Below are positions 13,445 through 60,489 of a stretch of DNA of 64,000 nt, piece by piece. The first letter of the stretch is position 1; each line of letters begins with the position of its first letter. Below the pieces are notes generated by a model, which saw only the letters and a program-made list of their open reading frames with translations, was not told where the DNA came from and ran no database searches. Source of the DNA: Diaporthe sp. PMI_573 (Eukaryota > Ascomycota > Sordariomycetes > Diaporthales > Diaporthaceae); the NCBI GenBank assembly GCA_021399435.1, contig JAJTUP010000011.1, positions 744,001 to 808,000 of the forward strand, given 5' to 3'. A program made the translations under genes and the position numbers.

Positions 13445-15172
13445 ATGAACGATGAGCATGAACGGCAACAGCGCGACCTGCGGCGCGCCACCTCGCTGCT
13501 TGGGTCAATGCCACGAGAGGAGATGGTTGAAATGCTCCTCGACATTCTATCCAACGAGCGCTCAGATAATACCCGCAGGCTGTCGGATTGGATGGCGTTT
13601 CAGATCATTCTTCATGATGAGACTCGTCACGCGCGAAAGCTACTGGCGCAGCTTGGCAAGGTGAGTTCCTGTCATCTCTAATCAGGTGCGCTGGAGCTCT
13701 GAGGAGTCCCAAATTTCATTCTCAGCAGCACGAGTCGCGACGGACCTGAGACTTGATCACTGCTGACTGGTTTGACACAGGACGGAAGGAGTCGCCTAAG
13801 GTCCCAGATCTCCCAGATGCCAAGGGCCAGCCGCCACAGCCCCACGTCCTCAGGACAAGACTTCAAACTACTACAAGATGATGCTCTAGACGACGAGTCG
13901 AGCTCAACCGCCTCGTTCGCGACCTGCCCCGAGGCGGAGCTCGTCAATGTCATCCAACTGAAGGACAACGGGGTGGACGATGGAGCCCCGGCTGAAGTCC
14001 AAGGCATCAGTGGTACATTGACTATTACGAAAGAGACACAGCTCGGTGACAAGCAGATTCCCGACAACGGTTCCCCGTCCTCAATGTCGGAAGGGAAGGG
14101 CTTAGGCCGAGGCAGAGACAAGCGCGCTTCCTGGGTGCAGTGGTGGTATGAAACTGTTCTTCGGCGCAAGCCTGGAATCCTCTCGGAATCGAACACCAGC
14201 AAGAAAGAACATCATCGGCCTGGAGCTTCTATGACGCCTACCTCACCGAGACTTCAACTAGCAACCAGTCAAGGCGACCTTGCCCCGAGGATTCGTCTAC
14301 ACGCATCCGGCAAGATCCGGAACACGTCTGTAAAGATCAAATCATTGAAGACGACGAACGAATTAGGGTACAAGAATTTGGCAGAGCTGTACGCAAGATA
14401 TGACAATGTTCGAGGAACACGACAAGAGACAGAGCCTGAAAGCTTCGACACTCCGGCGAGCTCTCATGGTTTAGCTGTGACCGCAAGCATGCACGCTTGT
14501 GAGGATATGAAGAAGATGCAGTGCCGGTTCTGCAGTGTCTACTTCACCCCTGAGCAGAATTTACGCGATCTCGACAGCGGCCTGAGCCCCTGTTCCTTTC
14601 ACCCAGGTAAGAAGCATAGCGGCACAACAAAGTTTCGAAGACTTATAACGGTAACAATGTGATAGGTATACCTCAGCGCGGCGTAGCAAGTGCCCTTACA
14701 ACCACTGACAGCCGGAAAGCCTGGAATTGCTGCCATCTTATCCTATCCATGGATGAATCCAGGGCTGGCCCGAAGAAAGCTCCAGGATGTGTGAGTGTCT
14801 ACCATGGTGAGATAAAGAAAGTCCGGTGTCATATGTGTGACCGCCTCTTCACGGAGGAGGAGAATGATGTCCAGCCGGACGGCTCATCGCCTTGTTCATA
14901 CCACCCAGGTAAGCGGTGTTTCCTGAGTTGCTCTCGCCATAATGACCAGACCAAGACTGACGCAAGAATTGACATGGGCAGGCTGGCCAGTACCGGATGG
15001 AAGCGTAGGTCAGATATGGACTTGTTGTCAAGAAACAACGAACTCCAAAGGTCCACTGTGGGATCGCGCTTTGGACCCAAAGTCACCAGGTTGCAAAGCA
15101 GTCTACCATCAAGCTCGTAGAGACACTTGGGGAGGGGGGTTTGGGTTCCAGAAGCCAATACCGTTTCCATAG
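13445..15172 (+). CDS. CHORD-like zinc-module protein A (two modules)
   Basis: Model join(13445..13660,13781..14606,14666..14908,14982..15172), 491 aa. Residues about 1-72 form a helical acidic/basic N-terminus (SMPREEMVEMLLDILSNE). Residues 73-320 are low complexity. Two tandem zinc modules follow. Module 1 is CRFC ... CSFHPG, then AWNCC ... GCVSVYH. Module 2 starts a few residues later with CHMC ... CSYHPG, then IWTCC ... GCKAVYH. Each has eight Cys/His in the order C,C,C,H,C,C,C,H, as in CHORD domains, but the first pair is C-x2-C instead of C-x4-C. Introns 2 and 3 both interrupt the Gly codon of HPG in phase 1. CHORD domains bind two zinc ions and in RAR1/CHORDC1 contact Hsp90; a similar protein-interaction role here is inference. 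No CS domain is present. Confidence 0.7.
14509..15112 (+). other. Tandem CHORD-like modules within protein A
   Basis: Module 1 runs from the first CxxC to the His of CVSVYH, module 2 from CHMC to CKAVYH. The linker between the last ligand of module 1 and the first of module 2 is only six residues (GEIKKV). Spacings: C-x2-C-x19-C-x2-H-P-G and W-x-C-C-x18-C-x4-H in module 1; x18 and x21 in module 2. Confidence 0.7.
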
Positions 15173-15633
15173 ATCCGATGTCAATGTGTTTCCAATTTCT
15201 CTTCATCGATGACTGGTTAATCAAATCCTCCGGGCTTATCTTGGACGAGGCTTTGCTGTCCTCACAGGTACGGGGGTACTTAGGTACAAAGCTTCCACAA
15301 GAGAGACGCATGTTCCCTGTTTTCAGCGCAGCACTCAAGTCCACACTTCGCCTTCAAGCCTGCAAACCTACCATATCTTGTCCCCCAATCGAGCCACATG
15401 AGAGGTGCTTGAGTCTTTTTACAGTCAATTCCTCGCTCCCACGCGCATCATATCGAAGATCGTCCTCCATCTCTTCTCCCTTCCTATGCTGCCTTCCATC
15501 TAGTGTTGGCCGTCTCGCGGCCATCAGACTACCCACGCACATTGGCGCTCAAACCTTGGGTGGGTCAACAGTCACGTCAGTCAACAGACTGAAAAGCTGC
15601 ACCACGAGACTTCTTCAATACACGACGATCACG
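15173..15633. other. Intergenic / promoter of protein B
   Basis: No gene seen. A pyrimidine-rich segment with TCTTCTCCC-type motifs precedes the ATG at 15634, as expected for a fungal promoter and leader. Confidence 0.4.
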
Positions 15634-16785
15634 ATGTATGAGTCATCTCCGCGCTCCAGGGAGGTAGCGAATGCTATTTCCCAGATTGAGAGGTTGACGG
15701 AGGACCAAACTCGTGCCGTCTTACGCCACCTCACGATTGACGATGCCATCATGAGCGAGGCGCAGTGTTCCCACATCGCCAGCCTCATCAGCGGCACCAT
15801 GCACAAAGTGCCACGTGAAGGCGTCAACGCGGCGCTCACCTGCGGCACCAGCTTGGCCGCAGCTTCCCATTGGGAGAAGTCATTCGCGAGCCATCCTGGC
15901 GTAAGTCTCGATATTGTGATCACCCATTGAGTCAGGAGCAATGCTGATGCGAGTGCTTTTACAGCATGTGTCTGCCACTTTTCAAAAGAAGATCACGAAT
16001 CACGAAACCGAGGCCGACAAGACCACGAAACAGGTAGTCTTGTACAAACCTGAGGAGTCGGGGCCTGCGTCGATCCACGATGGGTCCAAAGGTACCACGC
16101 CTTCCGTCGGCCTCCCTCCAGATCCCAAAGGTCTCACTATCGTCAACCAGGGACAGTTGACTTTACATTACCATTCTTACAATGAAGTCTCGTCCCCTGC
16201 ACCTCAGTCAGTCGCGGTTTCCCGCAAGCGGCCCTTAGACAGAGGCGATGGTGAAGGTTACTCCGAAGCTCTCGCCTCTTTGATGGAGTTTGACTTATCT
16301 CCTGAAAGCCGCCGAAATCCTCCATCCACTTCAAAGCGCCAACGGCTGGAGGATCCAGACATCGAGCTGGAGGAGCCTGAGGTTGAGAAGCCTCAAAACG
16401 GAAACAAGCAGGAGAAAGTCCAACCCGTAGAGACGAAGCCGAAAAATAAGGGCAACATCTGTACGCAGTGCGGAAAGGGGTTCAACCCCAAGCAAAACAA
16501 GGGCTCCAAGCAGCCTTGTACCTACCATCCTGGTACGTCGATCATTGGTGACCAGTTGAGCCCTCACTCAAGCAAATTCAGAAGACAGGGCACTTGAAGG
16601 CACAAGACTGACCATTACAATCACTTCAAGGAACGTTCAAGAATTATCCCCAAGGAGTGAAGCCGAAAGGGAAAAAGGGGGCGGCTAAAAAGCCACTGCA
16701 CGACGCATGGAGCTGTTGTCGACAAGGCAGCGAAGCCAAGGGATGCGTCAGTGGAAAGCATGTGAAGGGAAGGGTCGCCAGTTGA
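15634..16785 (+). CDS. CHORD-like zinc-module protein B
   Basis: Model join(15634..15900,15965..16532,16631..16785), 329 aa. The N-terminal helical motif is LTEDQTRAVLRHLTID, shared with proteins C and F. A short beta-like segment (LTIVNQGQLTLHYHSY) and two basic clusters (SRKRPLD and SKRQRLED, possible nuclear signals) follow. A single C-terminal zinc module then reads CTQCGKGFNPKQN ... CTYHPG, intron, AWSCCRQGSEAKGCVSGKH. It is the member closest to canonical CHORD: CG..F.P..N, CTYHPG, WSCC and GC..G.H are all kept, apart from the C-x2-C start. The 98-nt intron after HPG is phase 1. The function is unknown; a nuclear or nucleocytoplasmic zinc adaptor is inference from the basic motifs. Confidence 0.75.
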
Positions 16786-16977
16786 GAAGTTCATTGCCAG
16801 AATGAACAGCGCGCCAGAAGATGGCAGGCCGGACTATTGCTCATCTTTGCGTGGGCCCAACAGAGCATTGAAATCACTTCGCCATACGAGCGTTTGCGGT
16901 TCTTTTCGGTCGACGGGTGAACGACGAAATGGCGTTCTGAGACGTCTCGAGAAGTGACACGGCAGGTCACTCTTCGC

Positions 16978-17016
<39 letters not shown>

Positions 17017-17563
17017 CTTGTCTTTCTGCTGAGCTTTGTTTTCGTATAGGCTGGTTTCCAGGGAATGCATGCATCGGGGTGGATTGAGGCAACTGAGCCT
17101 CAAAGAAGGAAATCTCCTTCCCACTGCCTGTAGAATCGCATAGCAGTACTATCAATACAAAAGGGCACGAAAGGTTTGAGAATTTTGATCTGGCATAAAG
17201 ATTCTGCGCGTTAGCAAGGAAGCGGTTTGTGGTTCGTTCTCGTCACTCGTCACCAGATCCGTTCCCGCCATTTTTGGACTCCGCGCCAGAACGGCAGATC
17301 GATGTTGAAGTCCTTTCCCTAGGTACTTAAGTACCCGTTCTCAGATTATGGCCGACCTTTGCCAATTTATTTCCCATCGGGTGACCGCAGTGGCAGCCCT
17401 CACCCCTTGATTAGCCATCTACCCGCGCCTGCCCGAAAAAGGCGTGCACCTAACCTGCACATTGAACCACCACTCTTACTTGCCTGCTAAGGCACATGCA
17501 TCTTGTACACAATACTCGCAAGCAAACTGATGGTCGCCTCGTCAGGATCATTTCTTTTGAACC
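16786..17563. other. Intergenic with long poly-T tract
   Basis: No gene seen. It contains a T32 run at 16980-17011. The 3' half (TACTTAAGTACC near 17321) is the upstream region of protein C. Confidence 0.5.
16980..17011. repeat. Poly-T tract (T32)
   Basis: Uninterrupted run of 32 T between zinc-module genes B and C. It might be the polyA scar of an integrated RNA copy on the minus strand; no flanking duplication was identified. Confidence 0.85.
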
Positions 17564-18475
17564 ATGTTCGGCAACGGCGGCCGTGACCAGGCACGCGATC
17601 GCGTTGTCAACGAAATGCTGCTGTTGATCGACAACCTAGATCTTGACCAAGCGCGAAGCATCCTCCGCTGTTTCTCCATCGACGAAGAAAGTTTCGACAC
17701 GCGGGCCCTCACGAAGGTTACGGAGACAGTGCGCGCGACCTGTCACAGGTCTGGTGGTGACTATGATGCGTCGTGTCACTTCCCCGACGCTGAGACGGCT
17801 CGAGTGAACAGAGAGCATCTGCTGAATTCGCTGTCTGCTTCGAGAGAGGCAGAAAGGGCCGTGAGTGACCTCTTTGGGCATACGATGCGATCGGAAATGT
17901 CATTCATTGACCTTTAGAAGACCCAACAAGCTGAAACAGCCCAGTCCACCAACAATGAAAACAGCACCACAGGAAACAGCACCACAGAGGGGCATCCTGA
18001 CCAGCAGCAGCGAGGCACTGAGACCCGAAGCCCGGCTCCTGATCTTGGAGACCCCGAATTCGAGAAGTCGGAGACCCAACGTTTGTTCCGCGAGGGCCAC
18101 GTGACGATCAATCATTATTACATGAATAAAGGCCCTGAGGTCCAGCCACAGCCTGAACCAGCGCCTCGGCCCAAGGGTCACCTCTGTGCTCTGTGCAATG
18201 AGTGGTATTTCGAAGAGGACAATGTGCTTGACGAGGATGGCAGGCCCCCCTGTGGGTACCACTCCGGTATGTGCCGCCTTCAAGGACAGCCGTTCCCCGC
18301 CCACTGACTTTGTGCCTTTTCCCCTGCAGGACAAGTTGTGAACTACGAAAGAAGTCTGGCTGCAGCGTACCGCAACTATGGATACCGTGTGACTGGCTGG
18401 GCATGGAACTGCTGCCGTCGCGCGGAGAACGAGGCAGGGTGTCATCCAGAGTTCCACCGGCCAGCCCAGCTATGA
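17564..18475 (+). CDS. CHORD-like zinc-module protein C
   Basis: Model join(17564..17860,17918..18266,18330..18475), 263 aa. The N-terminal helix LDLDQARSILRCFSIDEE aligns with protein B. The middle is Gln/Asn/Thr-rich, with a beta-like VTINHYYMNKG segment. The zinc module is CALCNEWYFEEDN ... CGYHSG, intron, GWAWNCCRRAENEAGCHPEFH. Spacing is C-x2-C-x18-C-x2-H-S-G and W-x-C-C-x8-C-x4-H. The 63-nt intron splits the Gly codon after CGYHS in phase 1, as in the other family members. The stop follows eight residues after the last His ligand. Role unknown; see protein A for the family. Confidence 0.75.
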
Positions 18476-19134
18476 GACGAGGGAAGAGAAGGGTCTTGAC
18501 GGATAAAGTGCTCAAGTATTGTTCTGCGTGAGGCTGAAGTTTGTACACACCGAAATCCCCAAGTGGGTGTCATGTTGTTGGCGAGGCTGTGCCAATGGCA
18601 AAAGCACTTTGTCCCTTATCGTTTGAAGAGATGAAAAGCAACAAGGAGATTAGATCTCAAAAGAAGAACCTTGCTTTGATTCTGGTAGTTTTTCATTCTG
18701 ATTTTCTTGCTCCCGAGCCCAAAGGTCAAACCTAATCAATGGCGTTGTCATCACCACGTAGTGCTCTGTGTCAATGGACCCGGCCGTCCTGGATGTTTCC
18801 TACAGGTGACCCATGAGTTTTCCAGCTTTCCAGCATTAGCTTTCCTTGTTACTAGCAACCAGCAGCAAAAATTGGTACCGTCTCTACGGCAAGCGCACGC
18901 ACGCACACACCGTTCCACCCCCACCACCACCCCACCAGACATTGCGTTTACTTCGTTCCACGTCTATCCTCCCTAATCCACCCCTTTATTTCTCGCTTGG
19001 ATCACTCTAGGCGTCTCTAGACACATCAAGTACCTGTCGATTCAATTCACTCGCGCTGACCTGCTTCTCACTCGGCACAAACGGCCGCAAACTGCTGCTT
19101 GCATCATTGACAGAACAACACCTTGACCACCAAC
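18476..19134. other. Intergenic / promoter of the collagen-like gene
   Basis: No gene seen. A CA/CCACC-rich stretch (about 18895-18945) lies in the presumed promoter. Confidence 0.4.
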
Positions 19135-19731
19135 ATGCCCAAGGATGACGGCGGAAACCTCGACCGGCCCACGGGCGAGCTCTGGGTGGAGCTGAGTCGG
19201 GAAGCGAAACAAAAGATCTGCAACGCTCTCATCGATCGCAACCAGTCCGACGTGCTGCAGGAGTTTGCCTCCCTCGTCCGATTCACTCGACGCAATCTTA
19301 GCGCGCAGCCGACTCAGTCGCAGCCCTCTTTGGGACTGCCGGGACCTCAAGGATCCCGGGGGCCTCCGGGGCCTCCGGGGCCTCAGGGACCACAAGGACA
19401 ACCAGGACCTCGAGGACTGCCTGGACCTCAAGGGCAGCAGGGACTTCGAGGACTGACTGGACTTCGAGGACAGCCTGGGTCACAAGGCCCTCAGGGACCG
19501 CAAGGAATACAGGGACCGCAAGGAATGCAGGGACCACAAGGCCCGCAGGCTCCGCGAGGGGCTCCAGAGCCAGCGGAAAGGGTCATGCCCCCTGCACCAT
19601 CCTCTTCGACTTCGAGTACGCAACCTCTCGACTATGGAGCAGGGAAGCGCAAGTATGATGAGGTACCATCGGACACGTCCAGTCAGCAAGCGAAGAGACG
19701 CTTACTGGTCAAATTCACGAAAAGAAAGTAA
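19135..19731 (+). CDS. Intracellular collagen-like (Gly-X-Y) protein related to the zinc-module family
   Basis: Single exon, 198 aa, ATG at 19135. Residues about 15-53 ([20 protein letters not shown]) align with the N-terminus of protein E (VVWSGLTDRRRRNVCNVLAS), including the following F..LV. Then come 24 uninterrupted Gly-X-Y triplets, rich in GPQ, GLP, GPP and GLR. The C-terminus carries [11 protein letters not shown] and [13 protein letters not shown], matching the bipartite basic motif of proteins B, E and F. There is no signal peptide and no zinc module, and none is found in the next 400 bp. Collagen-like repeats form trimeric triple helices in known proteins, so this may be a trimerising relative of the neighbouring family; that is inference. 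The triplet codons are near-identical in places, suggesting expansion by slippage. Confidence 0.8.
19390..19560 (+). repeat. Collagen-type coding repeat (part of the Gly-X-Y array)
   Basis: Nine-base periodicity of GGACCNCAAGG-type units encodes Gly-X-Y triplets; GPQ triplets are most frequent. The whole array extends from about 19336 to 19555. Confidence 0.75.
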
Positions 19732-21518
19732 AGGGGGGATCCTCGTTATCGTGACTATGAGTATGACGAGAACGAGGATGCCCTGGAAATCAATTAGGAA
19801 CCAACATCGGTCTGCTTTTGGCTTTCCTATACTAATTCTTTTTCTTTTTCAAAGCTGCCTCTACAATTTTGGTCCCACAGTTGAGGATTTTCCGGGGGAA
19901 CACAATCTCCCGCGTGAAGCCCAGCGGTATTCAACTCAGTTCCATCAACTTGAATTATGCCGTCAGAGGAAAATGGATGCACCCATGCCTCTGCAGCATG
20001 GTTTTGGGCTCTGTGTGCCTGACTGGATTCAACACATCGCTGCCTTTGGAAAAGAATGAGGTGCACAAGAGAATGACACATCCGAGGAAGACTCTGAAAA
20101 GGGGGGGGGGGTGGACGTCCGAAAAGGGTTCCACGTCGTACTAGGAACATCTGTGTTCTGAGAGCTCTGGTCATCTGGATCATCATCCCGTTCTAAGATC
20201 AAGTGTATTCGGTGGTACTACAGGCAAATTCAGCAACGAAGGCATTTCAATCCAACAATTCTTTCAGCACAACCGCATGCAAGGCACCTGGCACCTCAGC
20301 CTTAGAAACTCGGCAGCGCAGTATTCATGCCTCGATCCTCAGTCGCAATACAGAGCACTCGAGGAGCCCATTCCATAACGAACCAACGCTACAGGCCTCG
20401 TCTGAACTACGAAGGATCAGTCACCAACCCGCCATAACCAACTAACGCCCCGGGAGGTACGGGGTAGTAGCACCATTGATCAAATTTTCCTGGGCTGAAT
20501 CTGAATACTCTTCCGAAATTCTCCTCCTAAGCAACCAGTCTAGACAAACCTCATCTTTTGGCCGTGCGAGCTGCAACAGTCGCATGTGTGCGCATTCTCC
20601 CAGGCTTTCTCAGTGTGGCTGAGACCTTTCCATTTTTGCGAAGGAAATATGCGGAGGCTGCAAATCGGACTGGCTTTACTGCTCTACTTGGAATGGGATG
20701 TTGGATGTTGGTCGGAGAATGAGAGTGGCAGTGCATACAAGGGGCCCTTTACACAAACTCAGTGCATTTTTCACCTGCCAAGCAATTGACTCTAGCAATA
20801 CATGGCTATTTTTCCGTACCTTTCGACTGCCGAGAGGCTTGGAGCCTCATCTCTATCGATAATCAAGGCTTCTCGAAAACGGATATTGCAAGACTTCATA
20901 ACCGCTATGGCCAGGGCGAGCCGTAATTTGTGTGCACACAAGACGGAAAATTACGTGGGCAATGCATTCCCGGTCTCTCAGCACGATTATCGGCACGAAG
21001 TACCTAGTATCAAAATTCCTTTATTGCTCTAACCCAGCACATTCCGATTGATCCGTAATTCCACATTAGCAACCCACTGCAGGGACAATATTGGTGGAGA
21101 ATAGTCACAGTTGCCGCTTTGTCAGGCCAGTCCCCATCGTCACTAAATGGGAAGTCTGTGGCTCACCAGCCACGCACGCACGAGCCCACTCAGCAGCTGC
21201 AGATACCCCCGGCGTTTTTGAGTAAGTAGTTGTGGAGACAGTGGGTATCACCACAACGGGTGGATCTGGTTTCGAACTGCCCCGGAAATGGAGGCGGTGA
21301 CGTGTCAGGTGTTTTTCTGGAGAATACGTTCAGGAATCCTGATTGAAAACTGTTGTGACGAAGACTTGCATGTGCCTTTAACACCTGTTAGACATCTCCT
21401 TAGCATCCGTCACACTTCTGAAAACTCAAGAACTTACACTTTTCTGCATCTGGCTTTATTCTTACACCAACTACTCAGGCTCATCCGAGATATATCAACA
21501 TTTTGCAGTTTATCCAAC
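19732..21518. other. Intergenic, 1.8 kb
   Basis: No convincing gene. Short open frames (20203-20445, 20586-20789) lack start context and family resemblance. A G11 run lies at 20101-20111. The 3' end is the leader of the PLD-like gene, whose frame is open upstream to 21288. Confidence 0.45.
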
Positions 21519-23972
21519 ATGGCAAAAGGCAGGCGAAATGGAGATGACGACGGTGCCTGGAGACCGTCGGCAGAAGATGCCTATATAGAGGCTGATGATG
21601 AGTTCCTGGAGCAAGAACTCATGGGTGACGGGCCTAAAGATGAGGAGAAGTCTGAAACTCAGAAGACATCTCAGGCTACTCCTCAAAAGAAGGCTCCTGT
21701 TGCGCAGCGAAAGAAGGTCAATAAGCGGTCAAAGCGCCCAGAGGATGAATGGAAGCCCACGGACGAAGAGCTTGAGGACGAAGAGCTCGAAGTCCAGGAG
21801 ATGGTAAACGAGCAGTTATTGACTGAGGAACTGGAACAAACAAAGACTGCCAAGAAGTCACCCGCAAAGGCTTCAACGACCACCGATCGCCAGAAGCCTA
21901 AGCCGCGGACCAGAAACGAGGAGGATGAGGCCTGGACCCCCGAGGACGACGAAGATTATGAAGAATCCGGAGACGACTATTTGGATTACGAAACTCTGAA
22001 AGACAAGATCGGCGCGAATGACGTGCCTTTCAGTCGAAAGAGCACACCACCAAGGAAGTCCAAGAAGGCCTCGACAGACAAGAGCGACGCAGAAGATGAG
22101 CCTTCGAGTGGAAAGAGTACACCACCCAGGAAAACTAAAAAGAGACCCGCCGTGGTCTCCGCCGGGAGTCCCGAGCAGCACAAGAAGCCCGCCCCCAAGC
22201 CGCTACCCCTACGCAAACACAACCTCGCGCCAGCCAGAAACGAGGCTGCTCCTGATTTCATCGTCACGGGCCAGAACTCAAAGGCACCATTCACGTTCGT
22301 TGTATACCGTGGCGAGGGAATGTGTATGCTTGCCATGAACTGGAAGAACGGTGGCACGCCTCCTGATGACTTTGTCGGTTTCGTGATCGAGTACCGGGAG
22401 CCACAGTCGACCGAGTGGCGCGAGATCCCAAACTTCCTCACTTTTCCCGGGGAGGCCCCCCAGTCCGGCCCTGACGCCCGTTCCAGTCGTCGGTCGCCGA
22501 TCCAGAGGTTCCGTTGGGTGCATTTCCCGTACACGGTCGACGTGCCCGGGCATTTCCGCTACCGCGTCACCCCCGTCTTCATGAAGGGTGGAGAGGAAGA
22601 CCGCGAGCTGATCTATGGAGAGCTGCAGGAGGTCAAAATCCAGATCATGGCCCAGACGTACCCCGGCAAGATGAACATTGCCTTCACACGAGGCTTCGTC
22701 TCTTCAAAGGCTTTTACCAAGAAATTCGGGAGCGATGGCGGTGTGGGGACCATCCTGCCCGTCAAAGCTGATGACGGCCTTGAGTTCAGGCCCGAAGACC
22801 CAGAGCTTCAGGAGAAGGCGTTGTCCTGGATGGGATTCGAGGCTCGTGAGGTGATGCTCGGGGCGCTTGATTCGGCCATCGAGGACGAGACCGCTCAAGT
22901 TCGCGTGCTCGCATATGATTTGAACAACCCCGAGATTGTCCTCCGACTGAAGAAGCTCGGCAAACGTGTCAAGATCATCATTGATGACTCTGATCCACAC
23001 AAAGAAGCCGATGACGCTGAGACCAAAGCGGCCGTAATGCTCGAGCGATCTGCGGGAAAGAACAATGTTCAGCGTCAGCACATGGGAGGCCTGCACCACA
23101 ACAAGGTCATCATCGTGGACGGAGAGAAGACTCAGATTGCCATTGGAGGGTCGACCAACTTCTCTTGGCGCGGTCTCTATGTCCAGAACAACAACCTCAT
23201 TGCCCTGGAGGGGCGAGGCCCGGTGGAGGTGTTCACAAAGGCGTTTGAGAACTACTGGGAGCACCCCAATGACACCGACGGATTCTACAACACCGAGTCG
23301 GCGCAGTGGCAACACCTCGGTCTCAGCGGGATCGACGCGCAGGTGACATTCTCGCCGCACAGCTCCAAGGCGGGCACCCTGGAAGGCATCGGGAATGACA
23401 TAGCCTCGGCCGAGTCAAGCCTCTTCTACTCGCTCGCCTTCCTCTACCAGACGCCCGGCGTCATAAGGGACGCCATCGTCAAGAAGACGGCGCAAAAGGG
23501 CATCATGGTCTACGGCCTGTCGGACAAGTCCGTCAACGAGCTAGAGCTCCAGACCAGCGACGGCAACCCGCCCGTCGCGTACCCGGAGAGCTTCGACAAC
23601 GAGTCGGCCGGTGGCTCGGGCGCGCGGATGCACCACAAGTTCGTCGTGATCGACTTTGACAAGCCGACCGCGCGCGTGTACACCGGCTCGCACAACTTCA
23701 GCAACGCGGCGGACCTTAAGAATGCGGAGAATCTGTTCCTCATCCGGGACCAGCGCGTGGCGACGGCGTATATGATTGAGGCTGTGTCCATGTTTGATCA
23801 TTACGAGGTCCGGAACCATGTGCAAAAGAAGAAGGATGCCGAGAAGAAGGGAGAGAAGCATAAGATCCACTTGAGGCTGCCGCCGAACAGGAAGGAGGGA
23901 GAGAAGCCGTGGTGGGATCAATACTGGAGTGTGAAGCAGAAGATACGTGACCGAGAGATGTTTGGGGTCTAA
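21519..23972 (+). CDS. Phospholipase D-like domain protein with acidic N-terminus
   Basis: Single exon, 817 aa from an ATG in good context (CCAACATGG). An in-frame ATG at 21288 would add 77 residues but reads like leader sequence. Two HKD motifs are intact: HNKVIIVD at about residue 527, followed by GGSTNFSWRG, and HHKFVVID at about residue 705, followed by TGSHNFSNA. This is the catalytic pair of the PLD/nuclease superfamily, which cleaves phosphodiester bonds through a phosphohistidine intermediate. Residues 1-230 are highly charged with three W-x-P repeats (GAWRPSAED, DEWKPTDEE, EAWTPEDDE) and two RKSTPPRKSKK-like basic motifs, suggesting nuclear localisation and nucleic-acid binding. The substrate (lipid or nucleic acid) cannot be read from sequence; the basic/acidic tail favours a nuclease-like role. 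The next gene on the same strand is unrelated. Confidence 0.85.
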   Translation: MAKGRRNGDDDGAWRPSAEDAYIEADDEFLEQELMGDGPKDEEKSETQKTSQATPQKKAPVAQRKKVNKRSKRPEDEWKPTDEELEDEELEVQEMVNEQLLTEELEQTKTAKKSPAKASTTTDRQKPKPRTRNEEDEAWTPEDDEDYEESGDDYLDYETLKDKIGANDVPFSRKSTPPRKSKKASTDKSDAEDEPSSGKSTPPRKTKKRPAVVSAGSPEQHKKPAPKPLPLRKHNLAPARNEAAPDFIVTGQNSKAPFTFVVYRGEGMCMLAMNWKNGGTPPDDFVGFVIEYREPQSTEWREIPNFLTFPGEAPQSGPDARSSRRSPIQRFRWVHFPYTVDVPGHFRYRVTPVFMKGGEEDRELIYGELQEVKIQIMAQTYPGKMNIAFTRGFVSSKAFTKKFGSDGGVGTILPVKADDGLEFRPEDPELQEKALSWMGFEAREVMLGALDSAIEDETAQVRVLAYDLNNPEIVLRLKKLGKRVKIIIDDSDPHKEADDAETKAAVMLERSAGKNNVQRQHMGGLHHNKVIIVDGEKTQIAIGGSTNFSWRGLYVQNNNLIALEGRGPVEVFTKAFENYWEHPNDTDGFYNTESAQWQHLGLSGIDAQVTFSPHSSKAGTLEGIGNDIASAESSLFYSLAFLYQTPGVIRDAIVKKTAQKGIMVYGLSDKSVNELELQTSDGNPPVAYPESFDNESAGGSGARMHHKFVVIDFDKPTARVYTGSHNFSNAADLKNAENLFLIRDQRVATAYMIEAVSMFDHYEVRNHVQKKKDAEKKGEKHKIHLRLPPNRKEGEKPWWDQYWSVKQKIRDREMFGV

Positions 23973-24607
23973 AGGCTACCTACGTATGACTTTCCGGCAC
24001 CTAAATCTTGTACCTAGCTAGCTACACATACCATTGGAGTTGCAAGACGGCTCCAAACATTGATCCGAGTCCGACACATTCACGCATGTGAAGAATGCCG
24101 GTGTTGCCACAGTCTTGTCCTTCGCGAGCTGTCTGTTCGATCATTTGGCGGCCGATACCTTTGTCCTGTCAGAGGAGAGTGTTACAGGACAAACGTGTGT
24201 CACGGTATCATTTCTCGGTGGCTAGCTCTTGAGGCTCAAATATCACAGCGATAGGAGCTGATTACCCTTAAAAGAGTAGCTTAAGAGCAGTGTCTCGTAG
24301 CGTCGTTACTAGTATGACACCATCACCAATCAGTCCCTGGCGTGCAACCACACGAAGACTCACATGTCGCCCTTATTTGATGAACATGTGGCCTCTTTGC
24401 AACTGCTAAGCTCCAGGGCTTCTATCCCATTTCAAACTGTCTATCTACGATCACCACCAATATTGGACCCATTTGCCGCCATTTCTCTCTTACAAAACCG
24501 ACGCCCTTTTGCCTCACTTGCGGCGGGATTCGGACTGACGTCGAAGTTCACTCTTCTCAGTCACTCTCTGGTGTTATATTCGCGGAAAGGGTCAAGAAAC
24601 ACGCAGA
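23973..24607. other. Intergenic
   Basis: No gene or element recognised; terminator of the PLD-like gene and promoter of the following one. Confidence 0.4.
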
Positions 24608-25605
24608 ATGGAAAATCAAGAGTCCTCTGATTCTGAGCTCCTGAAGTCGAGGTGGAATGACTTTCTGTCAAGATGCTACACTTCCTATCCGGAAGTCCCA
24701 CCCGACAACGCTTCTCAACTGCGCCAAGAATTCAAGGCCGAGGAGGAAGAGCGCGAGCGTAGGTTCAAGAACCACGAGATGTCTAAAGAGGAGTTGCTTC
24801 ACCACCTACGCGGAGTACGGGAAAAGCAGCATCGCGGGCGCATTCAGCGTGCCTTTGACCATCACCCTTTCTGTTGGAACTCAAAGCCGACACAACGCTC
24901 TTGAAGGAAGCACGCCTTTGGCGGCCAGGGAGGATTGATCACCACCGATCCTACAAACGCGTCTTCTGGGAGGTCTGTAACAATTCTGTACTTTTGTACG
25001 TGCTCACAGGCCCACGGCTCGGAGAGCTTGACCACAGCATCAGCATGGCTCATGGCTGCTTGCGGAAGTCTCTTTGCTGCTACCTTAAAGCAATATCGAT
25101 TTCAACCAGTTCATCGCCAAGATAATCGTCCCAGTGGACTTGGACTGTGGCGACACGCGGCCGTCCGCAGCACTGGTTGACGACGTCGTCAAGATCAACA
25201 AGGAGATTGTCGGCTACATCAAGGCAGCTAAAGAGGGCACAACCGCGGAGTATCTTAGACGAGTCGCAGCACGAAAGAACCCATCATGGCAAGAACGCAA
25301 GCTGGCTGCGTCTTCACGTACAGCGTTGCATCACCACTCGGTCCCAGCACTCTTCAAATCCTTGGGGGTCATCCTGTGCACGGAAGCCTGGGACAGAACC
25401 GGACCTTTTGAGATTGGTAATACTTCCGTCTGCATGTTCCTGACAGGCATGGAAGACACTGGTCTCAGCGCACCCATCACGTTCGACTCCATCGAGGACA
25501 AGATCCAGGCTGTCCTGCCGCGCGGCCCGAAGAAGGCTGTTCAGACAACGCTGGACACAGCTATTGACTTTATCATGCAGCTGGAACGTCGAGAGGCCCA
25601 AGTCT

Positions 25606-25645
<40 letters not shown>

Positions 25646-25880
25646 GATTCCTTCATCCCCCCTTTTTAGGGCGGTCTACCCGAAGCCCGAATTCCTGGAG
25701 GCGTACAACCATTTCTTCGAAGGGGTGACTGCGTGGGGCCCATCTCCAGGATGGATCGATGCCAATGCCTACCAGAAGTGGTCTGGCCCGGGAGCGGGGG
25801 CGGACTTGGATTCTTTCAACACATGCATGGAGGAGCATGAGAAGATGGTGTGGAGGTGTGTCGAGAAGCCTGATAATTAG
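24608..25880 (+). CDS. Hypothetical protein with polyalanine tract (exon structure uncertain)
   Basis: Two coding blocks are convincing. The first starts at the ATG at 24608 (MENQESSDSELLKSRWNDFL, then a charged helix with EEEERERRFKNHEMSKEELL). The second is open from about 25090 to the TAA at 25880 (FIAKIIVPVDLDCGDTRP ... CVEKPDN). One phase-0 intron 24815-25109 (GTACGG..AACCAG) joins them into 325 aa. The region 24815-25109 is also open in other frames and could hold a small extra exon (possible intron GTCTGT..CTCACAG at 24973-25009). A (CAG)13 microsatellite is read as twelve Ala. I recognise no family. The C-terminal half contains LERREAQ before the Ala run and a Trp/Pro-rich end. Confidence 0.45.
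25606..25644 (+). repeat. CAG trinucleotide repeat (13 units) encoding polyalanine
   Basis: Thirteen perfect CAG units, read in frame as GCA (Ala x12). Likely length-polymorphic between strains. Confidence 0.9.
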
Positions 25881-26378
25881 TTGAAGTGAGCTACCGCACA
25901 CTAAAATAGAAAAGCAACTCTGAGCATACCGCTGCACATATTGGCAGAGTTTCTGTGACGCCTCTGTCCCAACGGCTGTAAATGCTCTCGCCAGCTGAGC
26001 TAAAATTTTCCATGGAGCTGTCGAGCCGGGCCAGACTGCCAGCCTCCCCTGACAGCCATTCATGCCTTGGACGGTTCAAGCTCCTGGCCGCGCCTTCCCA
26101 GCAGCTTGCCACAACGGCTTTCTCAGAAACGCCTCCCAGTTCTGAGACCCCAAACCTGAGCCTTTTCCTTCCTTGGTCAAGCCCTACCTATTGATTTAGA
26201 TCCCCTGAGACCCCCATCTCGTGCTGCCATTCTCCCCTCTTCGTGTCGTTCCTCTCCCGCAAACAACAGATCTTCATCGCATCGCGCCCTTCCATACATT
26301 TGAAGCCCACCATTGGCGGCTCTGTCATTCCAATTCCTAACTTGACCCTTTGCGGCGGCTGTGCCCCCGCTAGAGACC
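25881..26378. other. Intergenic
   Basis: No gene recognised; pyrimidine-rich sequence in the second half precedes the ATG of protein E. Confidence 0.4.
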
Positions 26379-27518
26379 ATGGCTCCAGAAGCTGATAGCG
26401 CGTTTTCGGCCAACGTGGTCTGGTCTGGTCTCACCGACAGACGCAGGCGAAACGTTTGCAACGTCCTGGCCAGTTACCGCGGCCCAAATGCCAGAGAACA
26501 CTTCGAGCAGTTGGTCCACGGAGCGCATTCCATTCAACTTAGGTTGGAAGCCAAGACCCAGTCGCCGCCGACTGGGAAGCGCACGCTGGACCACGGTGAC
26601 GCGGCTGATGCTCCATCCGCTTCGAAGAAACCAAAAGTCTCCGAGGCCACGGAGCCGTTGCAACCTGACAAAATCGACATCGTGGCTCCAGATATCCCCT
26701 TCGTGTTCCCTACATGTCGAAAACCGCCCATTCAAGTTGGTCATCCGACGCTCTGGTCCACAATAGGCGGTAGATCACCGGATGCCAGGCCTTCATGGTT
26801 TGCGACGCGATCCACCTTCTTACCCAGCATACGGACTACCGTTCCCCCTTTTCCCACGACTTCAAGACCAGTTTCTGTCTTCTCCCTGTCCCAGTCTGCA
26901 AACACCACGACGAAAACATCAGGCCAACGAGAGCGAGAATGTGATGAACTGTTCACCATTGCCGACCGCAGATCCTCCCAACCTGAAACTATTCGACCGC
27001 AAAGCCCATCAGCCGAGGACGAAAAGTCCGATCAGTCTCCGTCAGTATCGCTCAGAACATCGTCACAAGGAGCCGATGGAATGCCTACAGTGTCTACGGT
27101 TTACAACCCTCCGTTTTCCGGAGTTGACATGTCATCCTTGAAGATCCCAGCCAATTCCAACGTCAGTGTCACTCTGAACGTCTTCCAGGCTCCTTCTTCA
27201 CTTCACCAGAACACAGACAATGACGCAACAAGGATGCTCAAGTGCATTCGATGCAGTGCCGTCTACATGGAAGCTCAGAGCACAGCGTTGGAGTGCCTTC
27301 GGCACACAGGTACGAGACACTGTTGCCTTTGCGGGTTAACAGACAGAAGGCAGCGACTGTTCGTTTATTGACCTTTCCTCACAGGCCGTTTGATGAGCTC
27401 CAATGACCCGAAATTTGACTACTATGACCTTCCCGCCGGAGCAGCTCATGTCTGGGACTGTTGCCGAAAAGTTATCACAAGCCAAGGTTGCCACCCGTGT
27501 GGCCACTCCGCTGAATGA
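26379..27518 (+). CDS. CHORD-like zinc-module protein E
   Basis: Model join(26379..27309,27385..27518), 354 aa. The N-terminal motif WSGLTDRRRRNVCNVLASY is shared with the collagen-like gene at 19135. A basic motif follows (GKRTLDHGDAAD..SKKPKV). The Ser/Thr/Pro-rich middle ends in a beta-like segment (NSNVSVTLNVFQA) comparable to LTIVNQGQLTLHYHS of protein B. The zinc module is CIRCSAVYMEAQS ... CLRHTG, intron, VWDCCRKVITSQGCHPCGH, with spacing C-x2-C-x13-C-x2-H-T-G and W-x-C-C-x8-C-x4-H. The 75-nt intron splits the Gly codon in phase 1. The usual Pro after the His is replaced by Thr, and there is an extra Cys between the last two ligands. The protein ends three residues after the last His. 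Confidence 0.75.
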
Positions 27519-27847
27519 TTGCTGAGTGCAATGAGGCGAAAATTGGTGTCGAATGGGTTGTACTTCAGGGAAGACGACCGGAAAATGTTTGACACAAACG
27601 AGAGAAGGCTAGGGGCTTTCTGTCCGCCACCTAATATTTGTCTTTTCAACCATTCTTTAGCTCGCTGGTAATTGTTCAGGGAAAGGTGATTTGGAGGCGA
27701 TAATTCTAGGTGGCGGTGGACACAAGGCAGGAAATTGAGCAACGAGATTCAGCAGCTGTCTACCACGGCACAATATTCCATGTCAAATTCCTCCAGAAAT
27801 CAAGTTTCCCATGGGCCATGTTGTACCAGATGTGGTCAAAGACGGCC
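27519..27847. other. Convergent intergenic region
   Basis: Tail-to-tail spacer between protein E (plus) and the coiled-coil protein (minus); no feature recognised. Confidence 0.5.
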
Positions 27848-28606
27848 TCACTCGGTCGTTCGCGCCTTATCCCGTGCAGGATCAAAGTCTCGGAATACCG
27901 CACCACCCCTAACAACATATGTTTTCCCATCGGGCTCCTCGACCTCATAGTCAAGCGTCTGCGTTTTCTGGTGCGGTCGAGGCGGCGCAGGTCGATAGTT
28001 TCTATTGCTGTTGTTGCCGGGCTGGCCGCGGGTCTGTCCTGCTCCGTTACCGCTGGGGCCATGATTGTTTCGCGGTGGGTAGGCGCCGTTGTGTTGGGGG
28101 GCCGGGCGATGGGGATAGGTCTTTCTCTGCTGGGGAGGGGGCGGCATGTGTTGCTGGCCTTGCTGGGCGTTGGGTGGGTGAGTTGGACGTCCCTTGGGAT
28201 GGTGGTGATGTTGTGGCGGAGGTTGGTTCGGGCGTGCTGAAGACATTCAGAGTGTGTCAGTGATCCGGGTCGCTTCTGAAAGGAGCTGTTCTCTTTGAGT
28301 GTCGGACAAGATGGATTTAGGAGAGGAGCAAACCTTTCTCTGGAGTCGGCCGCGCCCGCCGGAGATGGTCGTGCTCGGTTTGGTACCCCAAGAGCCTTGA
28401 TGGAAATACGAAGTTAGCGATGAGTGGCATGGATGTGTGGAGATACATCCTCGCAGAGCTCACTGTCTTTTGAGGTCCTCGAGTATGTCTCGGCTCCTCA
28501 TCCTGTCGTACCGATCCCTCGCCTTGTCGTACTCTCTCTTCTCGCGCCTAATATCATCTTCGAGGTCATCCAGTTTTCGTACCAGGTAGTCGAGTCGGCT
28601 TGACAT
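27848..28606 (-). CDS. Small protein: N-terminal coiled coil plus Pro/Gln/His-rich tail
   Basis: Model complement(join(27848..28236,28334..28395,28464..28606)), 197 aa. Start ATG at 28606. Exon 1 encodes a charged helix (MSSRLDYLVRKLDDLEDDIR..) with heptad spacing of Leu/Ile, likely a coiled coil. Exon 2 gives LLGYQTEHDHLRRARPTPEK. Exon 3 is rich in Pro, Gln, His and Asn (NQPPPQHHHHPKGRP, then NNHGPSGNGAG) and ends with a small ordered-looking segment (TYVVRGGAVFRDFDPARD). Intron 2 ends TGTCTTCAG; a spurious ATG inside its 3' end would give a 132-aa single-exon model. No known domain; convergent with protein E. Confidence 0.65.
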
Positions 28607-30169
28607 TTTGAATCTTCTTGGTCTTCGTCAGTTTGAGATAAGCGAGTATAAAATTTGCGTTCAAGGCAGGTTGCATGCAAAGCTCTTCCACGCCGCGCCG
28701 AGCAAGTGAGCAGAGATGATGAGTCCTGGCTTGCTCTGATATACCAGTCAGGATTCGCAAGAAGTCTACTTTCTGACAGAGTAAGTTTGGCATCTTCCCA
28801 GATCGGCGCGATCCTTACTAGATCCTTACCATAACTATGCCCCGGGCAGATCGTGCTAGTTCATGTTTCTGCAGCCTGGAAGGATGAGAAACGAGCACAA
28901 CACCATCAATTGAATTGAATCATAAAGCGGTCGCCAAGTTGGCCAGATACAGATAGATGTTTCGGAGCTTTCCGGCAATCTCAGACGGGCCTCGATCCCC
29001 AGGCCGGCCTGTATCACCCGGCCGTCAACGGCCCAACAGCCCGGCCTGGAGCGTCATCTGACAAAGCAAGCTTGCTTGGGCAACAATGGTAATCCTTGCG
29101 TTATTTCTACACTCTTCTGCGTAGATTGATCTCCCTGAATTTCCCAGGATTTCATCCTGAAATGGTTTCGTGACTTGTTGAAGTTGGTTTCTTTGCCAGA
29201 GTGTATATGCTGTCTCAGCACTCTTTGTGTCTTTCAAATGCCCGAAATTAGGCAACGGCCATGTCACAAGCGGCATCGTTACGGCCTCGGGAGAGGAGAA
29301 CCTTGCATAGAATGAAATGTGAAAGGCTCGACCCAAACAACTTCCGTGTGGTATCACCTAATGGCCGTTCAATTCTGTTGTTCAAGGGGCAATTTCCTCC
29401 ATACTCTATGCCCAAGTAACATTTAACTGGCCAGAGTTTCTAGGACTCCCCACAGTGAGACCTTTTGTATGAGACACGACATACCCCTTCCTGGCCAAAG
29501 GCCCCGGCAGTAGACGAGGCTTCCTGTGCCACTACCATTCTGCTTGTGACAGAACAGCTGGGAAGACCGCACCACATCAAACCAGATATCCCAGGACTCT
29601 GATCTTTAAAGATTCATGCCATAGTGCTGTCAATTCCAACCTACCTTCCTGGAGTGCAGCTACTACCTAGGTACCGCGTTACTTAGGTGGGCAAGTAAGT
29701 ACTTCCAGCGCTGGGCCCCTTCCATCCCTACCTGGACGAGCTTTTGGGCAGGCCAGGTTTTCCCACTGACACCTGGGCACCTGTCCGCCTCAGCTCCTGC
29801 TGGTTTTCAGTACTCTGAATTTCTGCTAGCGACGAAGGTTCTGACTCCACAGCGCGTCTCCGTGTCGTGCGTCCCCTATCATTCAGTCGCGCTTACTCAA
29901 CCCCGTCTCATTCTCTTCATCGTCGCCCTTCGCCCTTCTGTCACCAAATTCGACGGTGAGCAGATTTCTCTCCAAGTTGCCTCGATTGGTCTCTCTTGGA
30001 TGCATGGTCACGTAAGGTTGCATCACATCTTCAATGTCGCCTTGAGGGCTCTGTTCAGCTGCAACGACTCCGACAACTGCAACTTGTTTCACTTTTCACT
30101 CGATCCACGCGCCGCCACACGCGCAATTATGCCCATCAAACCAGGCACCGCAGGGCAACCTCAGCAGAA
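28607..30169. other. Intergenic, 1.6 kb
   Basis: Divergent promoter region between the coiled-coil gene (minus) and protein F (plus). No gene recognised; the minus frame 29025-29357 has no support. Confidence 0.45.
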
Positions 30170-30173
30170 ATGA
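30129..30173 (+). promoter_or_regulatory. Upstream ORF overlapping the start of protein F
   Basis: A 14-codon frame (MPIKPGTAGQPQQK) ends with a TGA that overlaps the main ATG in the arrangement AAATGAA. If transcribed in the leader, it would permit termination-reinitiation or reduce translation of protein F. Confidence 0.4.
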
Positions 30174-31989
30174 ATACCAACGAGAGGCTCGCTCTATCGG
30201 AGCGAGTCAATCACGCTTCGGAGGATCAGATTAAAAGAGCTCTGCATTTCATGATTTTGAAATGCACTGTTACGCAAACCACTATCGCACGTGCGATCAG
30301 GGATGCTATCGAGCGCCATACACCAACGCCAACCGTCGTATTTGAGGACGATGAGGTAATTCTCGCTTCCTCTCACAGAAAGTCCACCAAGAAGGAGGAG
30401 GATCAAAGCAGTGCCAGCGAGGACGAAGACGAGGATGCCGACCCCCCTACCACGACTTCAAAACACCACCGAAGCACTGGTCGTCGAGAGAAGAAGTCCA
30501 AGACTAAGCTAAAGGGCAAAAAGAAGGCCATTGATGACCAAGAGGGAGGGCAGAACCGCCCAGATTCGTCGAGGAAGAAGAAGAAGAAGCACAAGAAGCT
30601 CAAGGATGCACCCAACTTTCAAACTGGACCCAACCAGAGCAACTCTGAAGATTCCCTGGGAGGACCTTCCAAGCAAAGAAAGCCGGCTATCATTGATCTC
30701 GTCACGTCATCTGACGTTGAGACCCATGCCACGGAGCAGTCCGCGAGTCACGTTCTCAACAAGACCATTTCCAACGATCATGGCTTAGACCATGACAGCT
30801 CCAATGATCACCGCTCTGACAGCGACAGTTCAGATGTCGAAGGTTTCTCAAATGAGCAGCAAGACGATTCCCTTGCTGGCAGTGTTAGACTCTCCCAGGA
30901 AGGCTCCAGAATGAAGATCACACAAGCCGGCGCGAGACATGGTGAGGGTGATAGTCGTGCTCAGTCGGTCACAGTCTCCATGGCAAGGGCTTGGAACCAG
31001 CACGGCCACAACAAGATCGGCTCCTCTGGCTTGGACAAGAAAAGAAAGGCAGTGGAGCTTGCGGTAGAAGACGTCCACAGAAACCAGCCTGCGAAGTCAG
31101 CTACCGATGTCCATCTGGTCAAAAGGCCCAAGCAGAATTATTCGAAAGAGACACAGGTGCCACCAGAAGGACGAAAATGTGAGAAATGCAACAAATCATT
31201 CCCAATTTTCGAGCTGATGAAGCACCGGCGAGCCTGCAAGTGTACAGCTGCTTCAGTTGATCGCCATCACCTCCCCAAGGCGCCAGCAAATGATCATCGC
31301 CATGAAATCAAGCGAATCCAAAAGGGTGGTGACCCAGTCGGCGATATTCTCACAGCTGAGTCCCGAAGTACCGTGCAGCTTCCTTCAACCCCACTCCAAA
31401 CAGTCCCAGCAGATCGGGAGTTATCAAAGCCTCCACCAAGTTTTGTACAAAAGCCAAACAACTTCCCACGCGGCCCTACACCCGTGCCCATGGCTCTCGC
31501 GCGTTCAGATGCAGGCACCCAGTCACTGCCATCGTACTCTTTTCGGGGAATGAAGTCAGAAGCCTCTTCGGACGCTTCTACGGATAAGCAACCAATATCT
31601 CCCCAGCCAGAGCCCTTCCGACAGCACCTCCTCCCAGTATTCGAACGCAAAGAATGCATATTTTGCACAAGGTGGTTCAGTCACTGGGACAACTTGGAAG
31701 GTGTCTGCAAGTGCCATCCAGGTATGTGTCGGTCCTCCTCGTATCTCTTCAGCAACCAGACGTTGAACCAACCTTATTGATCTAACTCATATTACACGCT
31801 ATAGGTAAATACCGCCATCTCACAGAGGTGAATGTAGGTCAATTCCGTGCCAAATTCGGCGTTGATCCTATTCAGCCATTGCTAGCTTGGACCTGTTGTC
31901 TCCGTCAAGGAAAGTTTGCACCACCTTGTCGAACGGGTCGACATGTGTTATTGACGCATCCCGCGAAGTCAATACAACGTGGAGGGTGA
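30170..31989 (+). CDS. CHORD-like zinc-module protein F (with extra C2HC finger)
   Basis: Model join(30170..31721,31805..31989), 578 aa. The N-terminal helix ASEDQIKRALHFMILKCT matches LTEDQTRAVLRHL of protein B. A very charged disordered region follows, with acidic runs (SASEDEDEDAD) and Lys runs (RKKKKKHKKLKD). A SUMO-interaction-like IIDLVTSSD lies near residue 180 and a basic KKRKAVE near residue 290. An additional finger is at about residue 336 (CEKCNKSFPIFELMKHRRAC). The C-terminal module is CIFCTRWFSHWDN ... CKCHPG, intron, LLAWTCCLRQGKFAPPCRTGRH, with spacing C-x2-C-x13-C-x2-H-P-G and W-x-C-C-x9-C-x4-H. The 83-nt intron is phase 1 at the Gly codon. A nuclear role is inferred from composition. 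It is the largest member of the cluster. Confidence 0.75.
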
Positions 31990-60172: not shown

Positions 60173-60489
60173 AGTCCTGATAATTGTTCTCTAAAGGCGT
60201 GATGTTCTGTGGTCCAATGATCGTGTTGGTACTTAATCAGGAGTGGTGGTGTTGTATTCAACGATTGAGCCCATGTGTGAGACCAGGAATGTGTAGGATC
60301 CGGGTTAGACCTACAGGGGAAGAGGAGGCAAAGCCCTGGGGTCAAGTCTAAACAAAGAGGGGTGGCCACAAAGAGGGCTGAGGCCCTCTGCAGTAGTGGC
60401 AGAATCGCCAGTGAATGATGGCATTTCACACAAGCTTTTCAGGACAGGACTGAGCGGGGATGTCATCTATATGTTTGACCATTTGACAT
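60173..60489. other. Intergenic / promoter of the kinase gene
   Basis: No gene recognised; contains the left target-site copy (60482-60489) of the adjacent MITE. Confidence 0.5.
60482..60489. repeat. Left target-site duplication TTTGACAT
   Basis: Perfect 8-bp direct repeat with 61069-61076, directly abutting the left inverted repeat of the MITE. Confidence 0.85.

Follow-up and report, generated by a model that had tools for sequence, protein, structure and literature searches.

A 64-kb stretch of the genome of Diaporthe sp. PMI_573 (the window) carries a cluster of five genes, designated g1 to g5, whose proteins hold six cysteine- and histidine-rich modules with the ligand order of CHORD domains, remote profile similarity to those domains, and none of the segment through which CHORD domains contact Hsp90. 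Such modules have been described in helpers of Hsp90 (PMC2935968). For the cluster we favor a different reading, to which we assign a probability of about one half: that the locus is a set of paralogues, found in Diaporthe and close kin, encoding nuclear adaptors of the CHORD superfamily and not Hsp90 co-chaperones. Relatives of the cluster genes are present in other Diaporthe species, in several of which they carry consecutive locus tags.

Module pattern and shared intron

The preliminary description of this DNA had counted five genes with six modules and no CS domain, and both points agree with what we found. A six-frame regular-expression scan of the 64 kb returned six first halves of the module (C-x2-C...C-x2-H-x-G) and six second halves (W-x-C-C...C-x4-H). 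All 12 lie on the + strand inside g1-g5 and nowhere else in the window, and every first half has a second half no more than 400 bases away. As a control, 200 windows were generated from a first-order Markov model with the same dinucleotide frequencies; these gave no pair of halves, with a mean of 0.165 first halves (maximum 2) and 0.035 second halves (maximum 1) per window. No Pfam line for a CS domain appeared in any of the five proteins.

The spacings of the six modules can be written C-x2-C-x13/15/18/19-C-x2-H-x-G-x11..27-W-x-CC-x8/9/18/21-C-x4-H. Ten columns are invariant among them, namely the eight Cys/His ligands plus the H-x-G glycine and the W-x-C-C tryptophan, and the identical ten columns are kept in 12 modules from g2-g5 and their relatives. 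The modules also share a gene structure, since a phase-1 intron of 59-98 bases interrupts the Gly codon of H-x-G in all six. In each protein the last module histidine is followed by only 3-20 residues. All five genes begin with an ATG at the start position given in Table 1, and each splices to an open protein. Spliced g4 is the public protein F5883DRAFT_661548 of Diaporthe sp. PMI_573 (100% identity over 100% of the length), and the splice sites of g1, g2, g3 and g5 were placed using GT-AG borders and alignment with relatives.

Kinship with CHORD and Rex3/REXO1 modules

We take the modules to be divergent members or remote relatives of the CHORD superfamily, with a fold predicted by homology. 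Canonical CHORDs (those of RAR1, CHORDC1/CHP1 and a gene on contig C1 of the same genome) have the eight ligands in the same order, together with H-P-G and W-x-C-C. When a profile of the six modules was searched against Protein Data Bank (PDB) chains, the best match was the CHORD of human CHORDC1 (2yrt, E 9.8e-6; 3.3e-4 for the matching stretch), with the register kept over positions 6-72, and RAR1 (2xcm) came lower in the list, at E 0.026. Aligned by hhalign to four canonical CHORDs, the modules reached 95.6% (score 43.2) when g1 was left out and 96.8% (score 50.8) when it was included, and the highest scores from column shuffles, 100 for each comparison, were 26.1 and 21.5. Taken singly, g1 and g2 link well to CHORD.

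A number of results weigh against this reading. None of the five whole proteins reaches the cut-off of the Pfam CHORD model (PF04968, 24.6 bits): g1 scores 23.3 bits, and g2-g5 give no CHORD line. With the modules submitted alone, g1 module b passes (25.0 bits), the only one of the six to do so; g1 module a and the g2 module score 14.6 and 14.7 bits, and those of g3, g4 and g5 give no line. The six-module profile also weakly matched a C2H2 protein (E 0.0035, with another chain at 0.025). After removal of g1 from the profile 2yrt was still at the top, but at E 0.0067, and at 1.8 for its best stretch alone. Single subfamilies aligned to the four canonical CHORDs gave 0.5-6.5% for g4, 1.2-46% for g5 and 0.7-50.4% for g3; the tie of these three to CHORD runs via g1 and g2. 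The hhalign values depend on direction and partner, and the Rex3-like module introduced below, used as the query, did not exceed 61.2% against any of the CHORDs or cluster modules. A hidden Markov model (HMM) of 14 modules scored two frames of the CHORD locus at 12.8 and 12.2 bits and Rex3 at 11.9, none of them clearly higher than the best of 3000 shuffles, which scored 11.5. AlphaFold models built from 31 and 11 sequences were poor (mean predicted local distance difference test score, pLDDT, 49.3 and 43.2), and a Foldseek search with the first of these low-confidence models returned no match under E 1. Of the CHORD claim in the preliminary description, then, the remote profile relation stands, while the interpretation as a whole is only partly supported.

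Scanned with the Pfam CHORD model in six frames, the genome yields just the canonical two-CHORD gene and not the cluster, because the cluster modules are split by introns and weak besides. No Pfam or NCBIfam model reached its cut-off in the scanned zinc-module proteins as wholes, and a check for a strong match of the modules to an unrelated named zinc-finger family found none. The second half of the module resembles the BTK zinc motif (PF00779; g1 module b 15.6 bits and g2 16.4 bits, cut-off 24). The BTK motif binds one zinc and comes after a PH domain.

The first knuckle sets the cluster apart from canonical CHORDs, which start C-x4-C, as do both CHORDs of the contig C1 gene, whereas all six cluster modules start C-x2-C. 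This short knuckle had been put forward as novel, a claim that is not supported. The genome's own Rex3-like exonuclease (L079, frame from 2187, an open reading frame, ORF, of 758 amino acids) contains C-x2-C-x22-C-x2-H-P-G-x18-Y-x-CC-x9-C-x4-H followed by a DEDDh domain. We call it Rex3-like from this order of module and DEDDh domain; the gene was found through the DEDDh part of Rex1 (E 6.4e-18). The corresponding region of Rex3/REXO1 was termed a CHORD domain on structural grounds in 2025, with its Cys, His and their spacing said to be conserved (PMC12129344). Given this naming and the C-x2-C of the Rex3-like protein, the C-x2-C start is a known sub-type, accompanied in g2-g5 by a last loop of just x8 or x9. 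The Rex3 sub-type escapes Pfam: the Rex3-like module scores 17.7 bits with the BTK zinc motif (cut-off 24) and 9.4 bits with Pfam CHORD, both below cut-off, and Pfam gives no DEDDh line for the protein. The model PF15870, tried for Rex3, matched nowhere, controls included, and phmmer of the Rex3 module against the PDB returned just two irrelevant lines. PF00929 was rejected as a route to the gene; it marks five places in the genome, none of them Rex3.

This similarity raises the alternative that the family derives from an exonuclease of the Rex3/REXO1 type, which would have shed its DEDDh domain but retained the zinc module for docking on transcription or RNA-processing machinery. The Rex3-like module and those of g2-g5 are alike in C-x2-C, C-x2-H-P-G, aromatic-x-C-C and x8/9-C-x4-H, in occurring singly, and in lacking the FHE segment treated below; g1 differs from Rex3 in having two modules and longer last loops. 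By hhalign the family aligns to Rex3 over nearly the whole module at 90.7%, or 71.0% without g1 (scores 34.6 and 28.1), where 100 column or residue shuffles per comparison reached at most 20.6 and 20.2. With the comparison resting on one Rex3 sequence, however, three of the four canonical CHORDs, as single sequences, outscore it against the family (49.5, 40.5 and 40.6 against 34.6; the fourth scores 26.1), and origin from Rex3 instead of CHORD is therefore not established. The first loop of the Rex3-like module is x22, in contrast to x13-19 in the cluster, and its module lies in one open frame, while the H-x-G intron was seen in cluster modules only. A DEDDh nuclease follows the Rex3 module, and g1-g5 end shortly after theirs; Pfam reports no DEDDh line in the five proteins, though it also misses the DEDDh of the Rex3-like protein itself. 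Rex3 has an N-terminal KIX domain according to PMC12129344. By hhalign the cluster heads showed no likeness to the helical region of our Rex3-like protein that was picked by eye as KIX (0.1-0.9%). We consider Rex3 descent unlikely.

A further alternative is that the modules form an independent zinc fold, which might bind nucleic acid, and that their likeness to CHORD arose by convergence on the ligands and on the H-P-G and W-C-C turns. The low single-subfamily values of g3-g5, the weak C2H2 and BTK-motif matches, the basic linkers and the predicted models without a usable fold are all compatible with this. It would, however, have to account for eight ligands in CHORD order, with C3-x2-H4, the Trp two before C-C, and C7-x4-H8 all coinciding, and for shuffled controls that fall far lower in hhalign. 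We regard convergence as distinctly unlikely.

The Hsp90-contact segment and a possible adaptor role

The pattern FH[DE]xx[KR]G[WY] occurs in all four canonical CHORDs compared, one of which has an exon border joined by hand, in none of the six cluster modules, and not in the single Rex3 module. In RAR1 the zinc ligands are C159, C164, C178 and H218 for one site and H181, C196, C197 and C213 for the other, and His188 and Asp189 contact the Hsp90-bound nucleotide (PMC2935968). The eight RAR1 ligands match the eight of the cluster modules in order, and we place His188 and Asp189 in the F-H-D/E segment that precedes W-x-C-C.

These observations bear on the possibility that g1-g5 are divergent co-chaperones of the Hsp90/Sgt1 type that serve lineage-specific clients, as a counterpart of RAR1/CHP1 in fungi. 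The profile relation to the CHORDs of CHORDC1 and RAR1 would fit such a role, as would the two modules of g1, an arrangement also seen in RAR1; in both plants and animals CHORDs occur as tandem pairs, to which a CS domain is added in animals (PMC2935968). Set against this are the missing contact segment, in terms of the contacts reported there, and the lack of any CS-domain line. In addition, a canonical gene with two CHORDs lies elsewhere in the genome, so the Hsp90 co-chaperone role is presumably already filled. The link to Hsp90 co-chaperones drawn in the preliminary description is thus weakened, and we judge a co-chaperone function very unlikely.

With the Hsp90-contact segment absent, the proteins look like lineage-specific protein adaptors, and nuclear adaptors between proteins are the most economical account of the family, its cellular steps being putative. 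We hypothesize that the module at the C-terminal end of each protein binds two zinc ions, the first through C1, C2, C3 and the last His, and the second through the first His together with C7 and the paired cysteines, an assignment made by homology with RAR1 CHORDII. Each protein would begin with a small, probably helical head, joined to the module by a long linker with basic clusters resembling nuclear-localization signals and, in g2, g3 and g4, an added beta-like peptide. The zinc module may contact one protein partner, with the head contacting another partner or itself, and the paralogues would then differ in which partners they connect. If this adaptor reading is correct, the CHORD scaffold can be reused as a general adaptor and has diversified within one fungal group.

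Distribution, heads and neighboring genes

By the searches run, the genome has one such locus. The pattern C-x-[FY]-H-P-G^GT occurs three times in the genome, each time in the cluster. A relaxed pattern, TGYNNNNNNCAYNCNGGTRNG, which requires NCN between the His and the Gly codons plus a GTRNG donor, gave 62 matches compared with 49 for its backward control; among 57 distinct contexts, only the six of the cluster combine a C-x2-C lying 13-19 residues upstream with a W-x-C-C no more than 600 bases downstream. Protein searches of the genome with g1, g3, g4 and g5 found the cluster itself, plus one match at E ~2 each for g3 and g4. These searches barely join the paralogues to one another, the sole link being g3 to g1 module b at E 0.19, and since known paralogues are hardly seen, they are a weak test of absence elsewhere in the genome.

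Relatives were sought in a database by a method that depends on proteins of similar length having 5-residue words in common, and in two of the three sets only the top word-sharing candidates were scored; absence outside Diaporthales accordingly stays unestablished. This search gave 31 relatives for g2 and at least 7 and at least 24 in the other two sets, the 24 including g4 itself. All named relatives are from Diaporthe except one from Cytospora schulzeri. Six relatives of g3 (P0033-P0038, among the top candidates) include four named Diaporthe, and g5 has a near-identical Joint Genome Institute (JGI) metagenome protein, P0032, whose model continues into the module intron. Alignments to the N-terminal part of g1 were obtained for SLS64_012500 of D. 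eres, N8I77_006718 of D. amygdali and diail_827 of D. ilicicola. Consecutive tags, which we take to mark neighbors, correspond to g3, g2 and g1 in D. eres (SLS64_012498-012500). The g2/g3 pair has such tags in both D. citri (INS49_012019-012020) and D. australafricana (Daus18300_012795-012796), as does the g1/g2 pair in both D. amygdali (N8I77_006718-006719) and D. ilicicola (diail_826-827). Within the reach of the searches, then, the family is clustered, as first proposed, and lineage-restricted, and the tags point to further such loci in several Diaporthe species. A whole module was recognized by pattern in 11 of 62 database proteins (one being g4, and two having retained-intron-like sequence between the halves), and several other models of the family end or read through at the H-x-G intron. 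This phase-1 intron is therefore a handle for finding missed relatives. A search confined to an open-access collection found no publication on the g1-g5 family.

The cluster also includes gC, a collagen-like gene without a zinc module (Table 1; Pfam Collagen 56.4 bits), which has a basic C-terminus and which the g4 profile picks among window frames at E 4.3e-5. No other copy of its N-terminal 69 residues was found in the genome. Of 15 comparisons between heads, only g2-g3 (93.7%, E 1.9e-7) and g4-gC (94.8%, E 5.3e-8) hold. One head common to all members was rejected, the heads of g1 and g5 matching none of the others. Two separate pairs with shared heads suggest that heads and tails were recombined within the cluster, or that one tail was replaced. 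The N-terminal domain of g2 is probably helical, and KR-rich stretches in the linkers of g2, g4, gC and g5 were read by eye as nuclear signals. The beta-like peptides of g2, g3 and g4 are LTLHYHSY, VTINHYYM and VTLNVFQA, their correspondence being judged by eye. In g5, IIDLVTSSDVE (30689-30721) resembles a SUMO-interaction motif.

Table 1. Positions of the cluster genes and their parts in the window (NLS, nuclear-localization signal; aa, amino acids)
Feature	Position	Strand	Details
g1	13445-15172	+	4 exons: 13445-13660, 13781-14606, 14666-14908, 14982-15172; 491 aa; two CHORD-like modules
g1 module a	14522-14805	+	intron 14607-14665, within Gly codon of H-P-G
g1 module b	14827-15109	+	intron 14909-14981
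g1 stop codon	15170-15172		
g2	15634-16785	+	3 exons: 15634-15900, 15965-16532, 16631-16785; 329 aa
g2 conserved beta-like motif	16130-16183		
g2 basic bipartite NLS-like stretch	16226-16345		by eye
g2 module	16460-16761	+	intron 16533-16630
g3	17564-18475	+	3 exons: 17564-17860, 17918-18266, 18330-18475; 263 aa
g3 beta-like motif	18089-18133		
g3 module	18185-18457	+	intron 18267-18329
gC	19135-19731	+	single exon; collagen-like; 198 aa; no zinc module
gC N-terminal domain	19177-19284		homologous to g4 N-terminal domain
gC Gly-X-Y triplets	19333-19548		24, uninterrupted
gC NLS-like stretch	19642-19701		by eye
g4	26379-27518	+	2 exons: 26379-27309, 27385-27518; 354 aa
g4 N-terminal domain	26415-26522		
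g4 NLS-like stretch	26574-26639		by eye
g4 beta-like motif	27132-27200		
g4 module	27243-27506	+	intron 27310-27384
g5	30170-31989	+	2 exons: 30170-31721, 31805-31989; 578 aa
g5 extra C-x2-C knuckle region	31178-31243		
g5 module	31655-31944	+	intron 31722-31804

Between gC and g4 lies a long ORF (21222-23972) whose extended N-terminal part is charged and which has two stretches of PLD-like domains (PF13091). A C-5 cytosine DNA methylase domain (PF00145) is encoded on the - strand at 36127-38472, roughly 4 kb downstream from the cluster. One could imagine a lineage-specific adaptor locus built by shuffling, in which two kinds of head (the g2/g3 type and the g4/gC type), a collagen-like rod in one member and CHORD-superfamily zinc modules in the others interact as a set in the nucleus. 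With these two genes inside and near the cluster, the set might serve as a scaffold in a recognition or genome-defence system of the lineage, an idea that we find highly improbable. Elsewhere in the window, one frame at 58046-60190 (-) places WD40-type repeats after a protein kinase domain.

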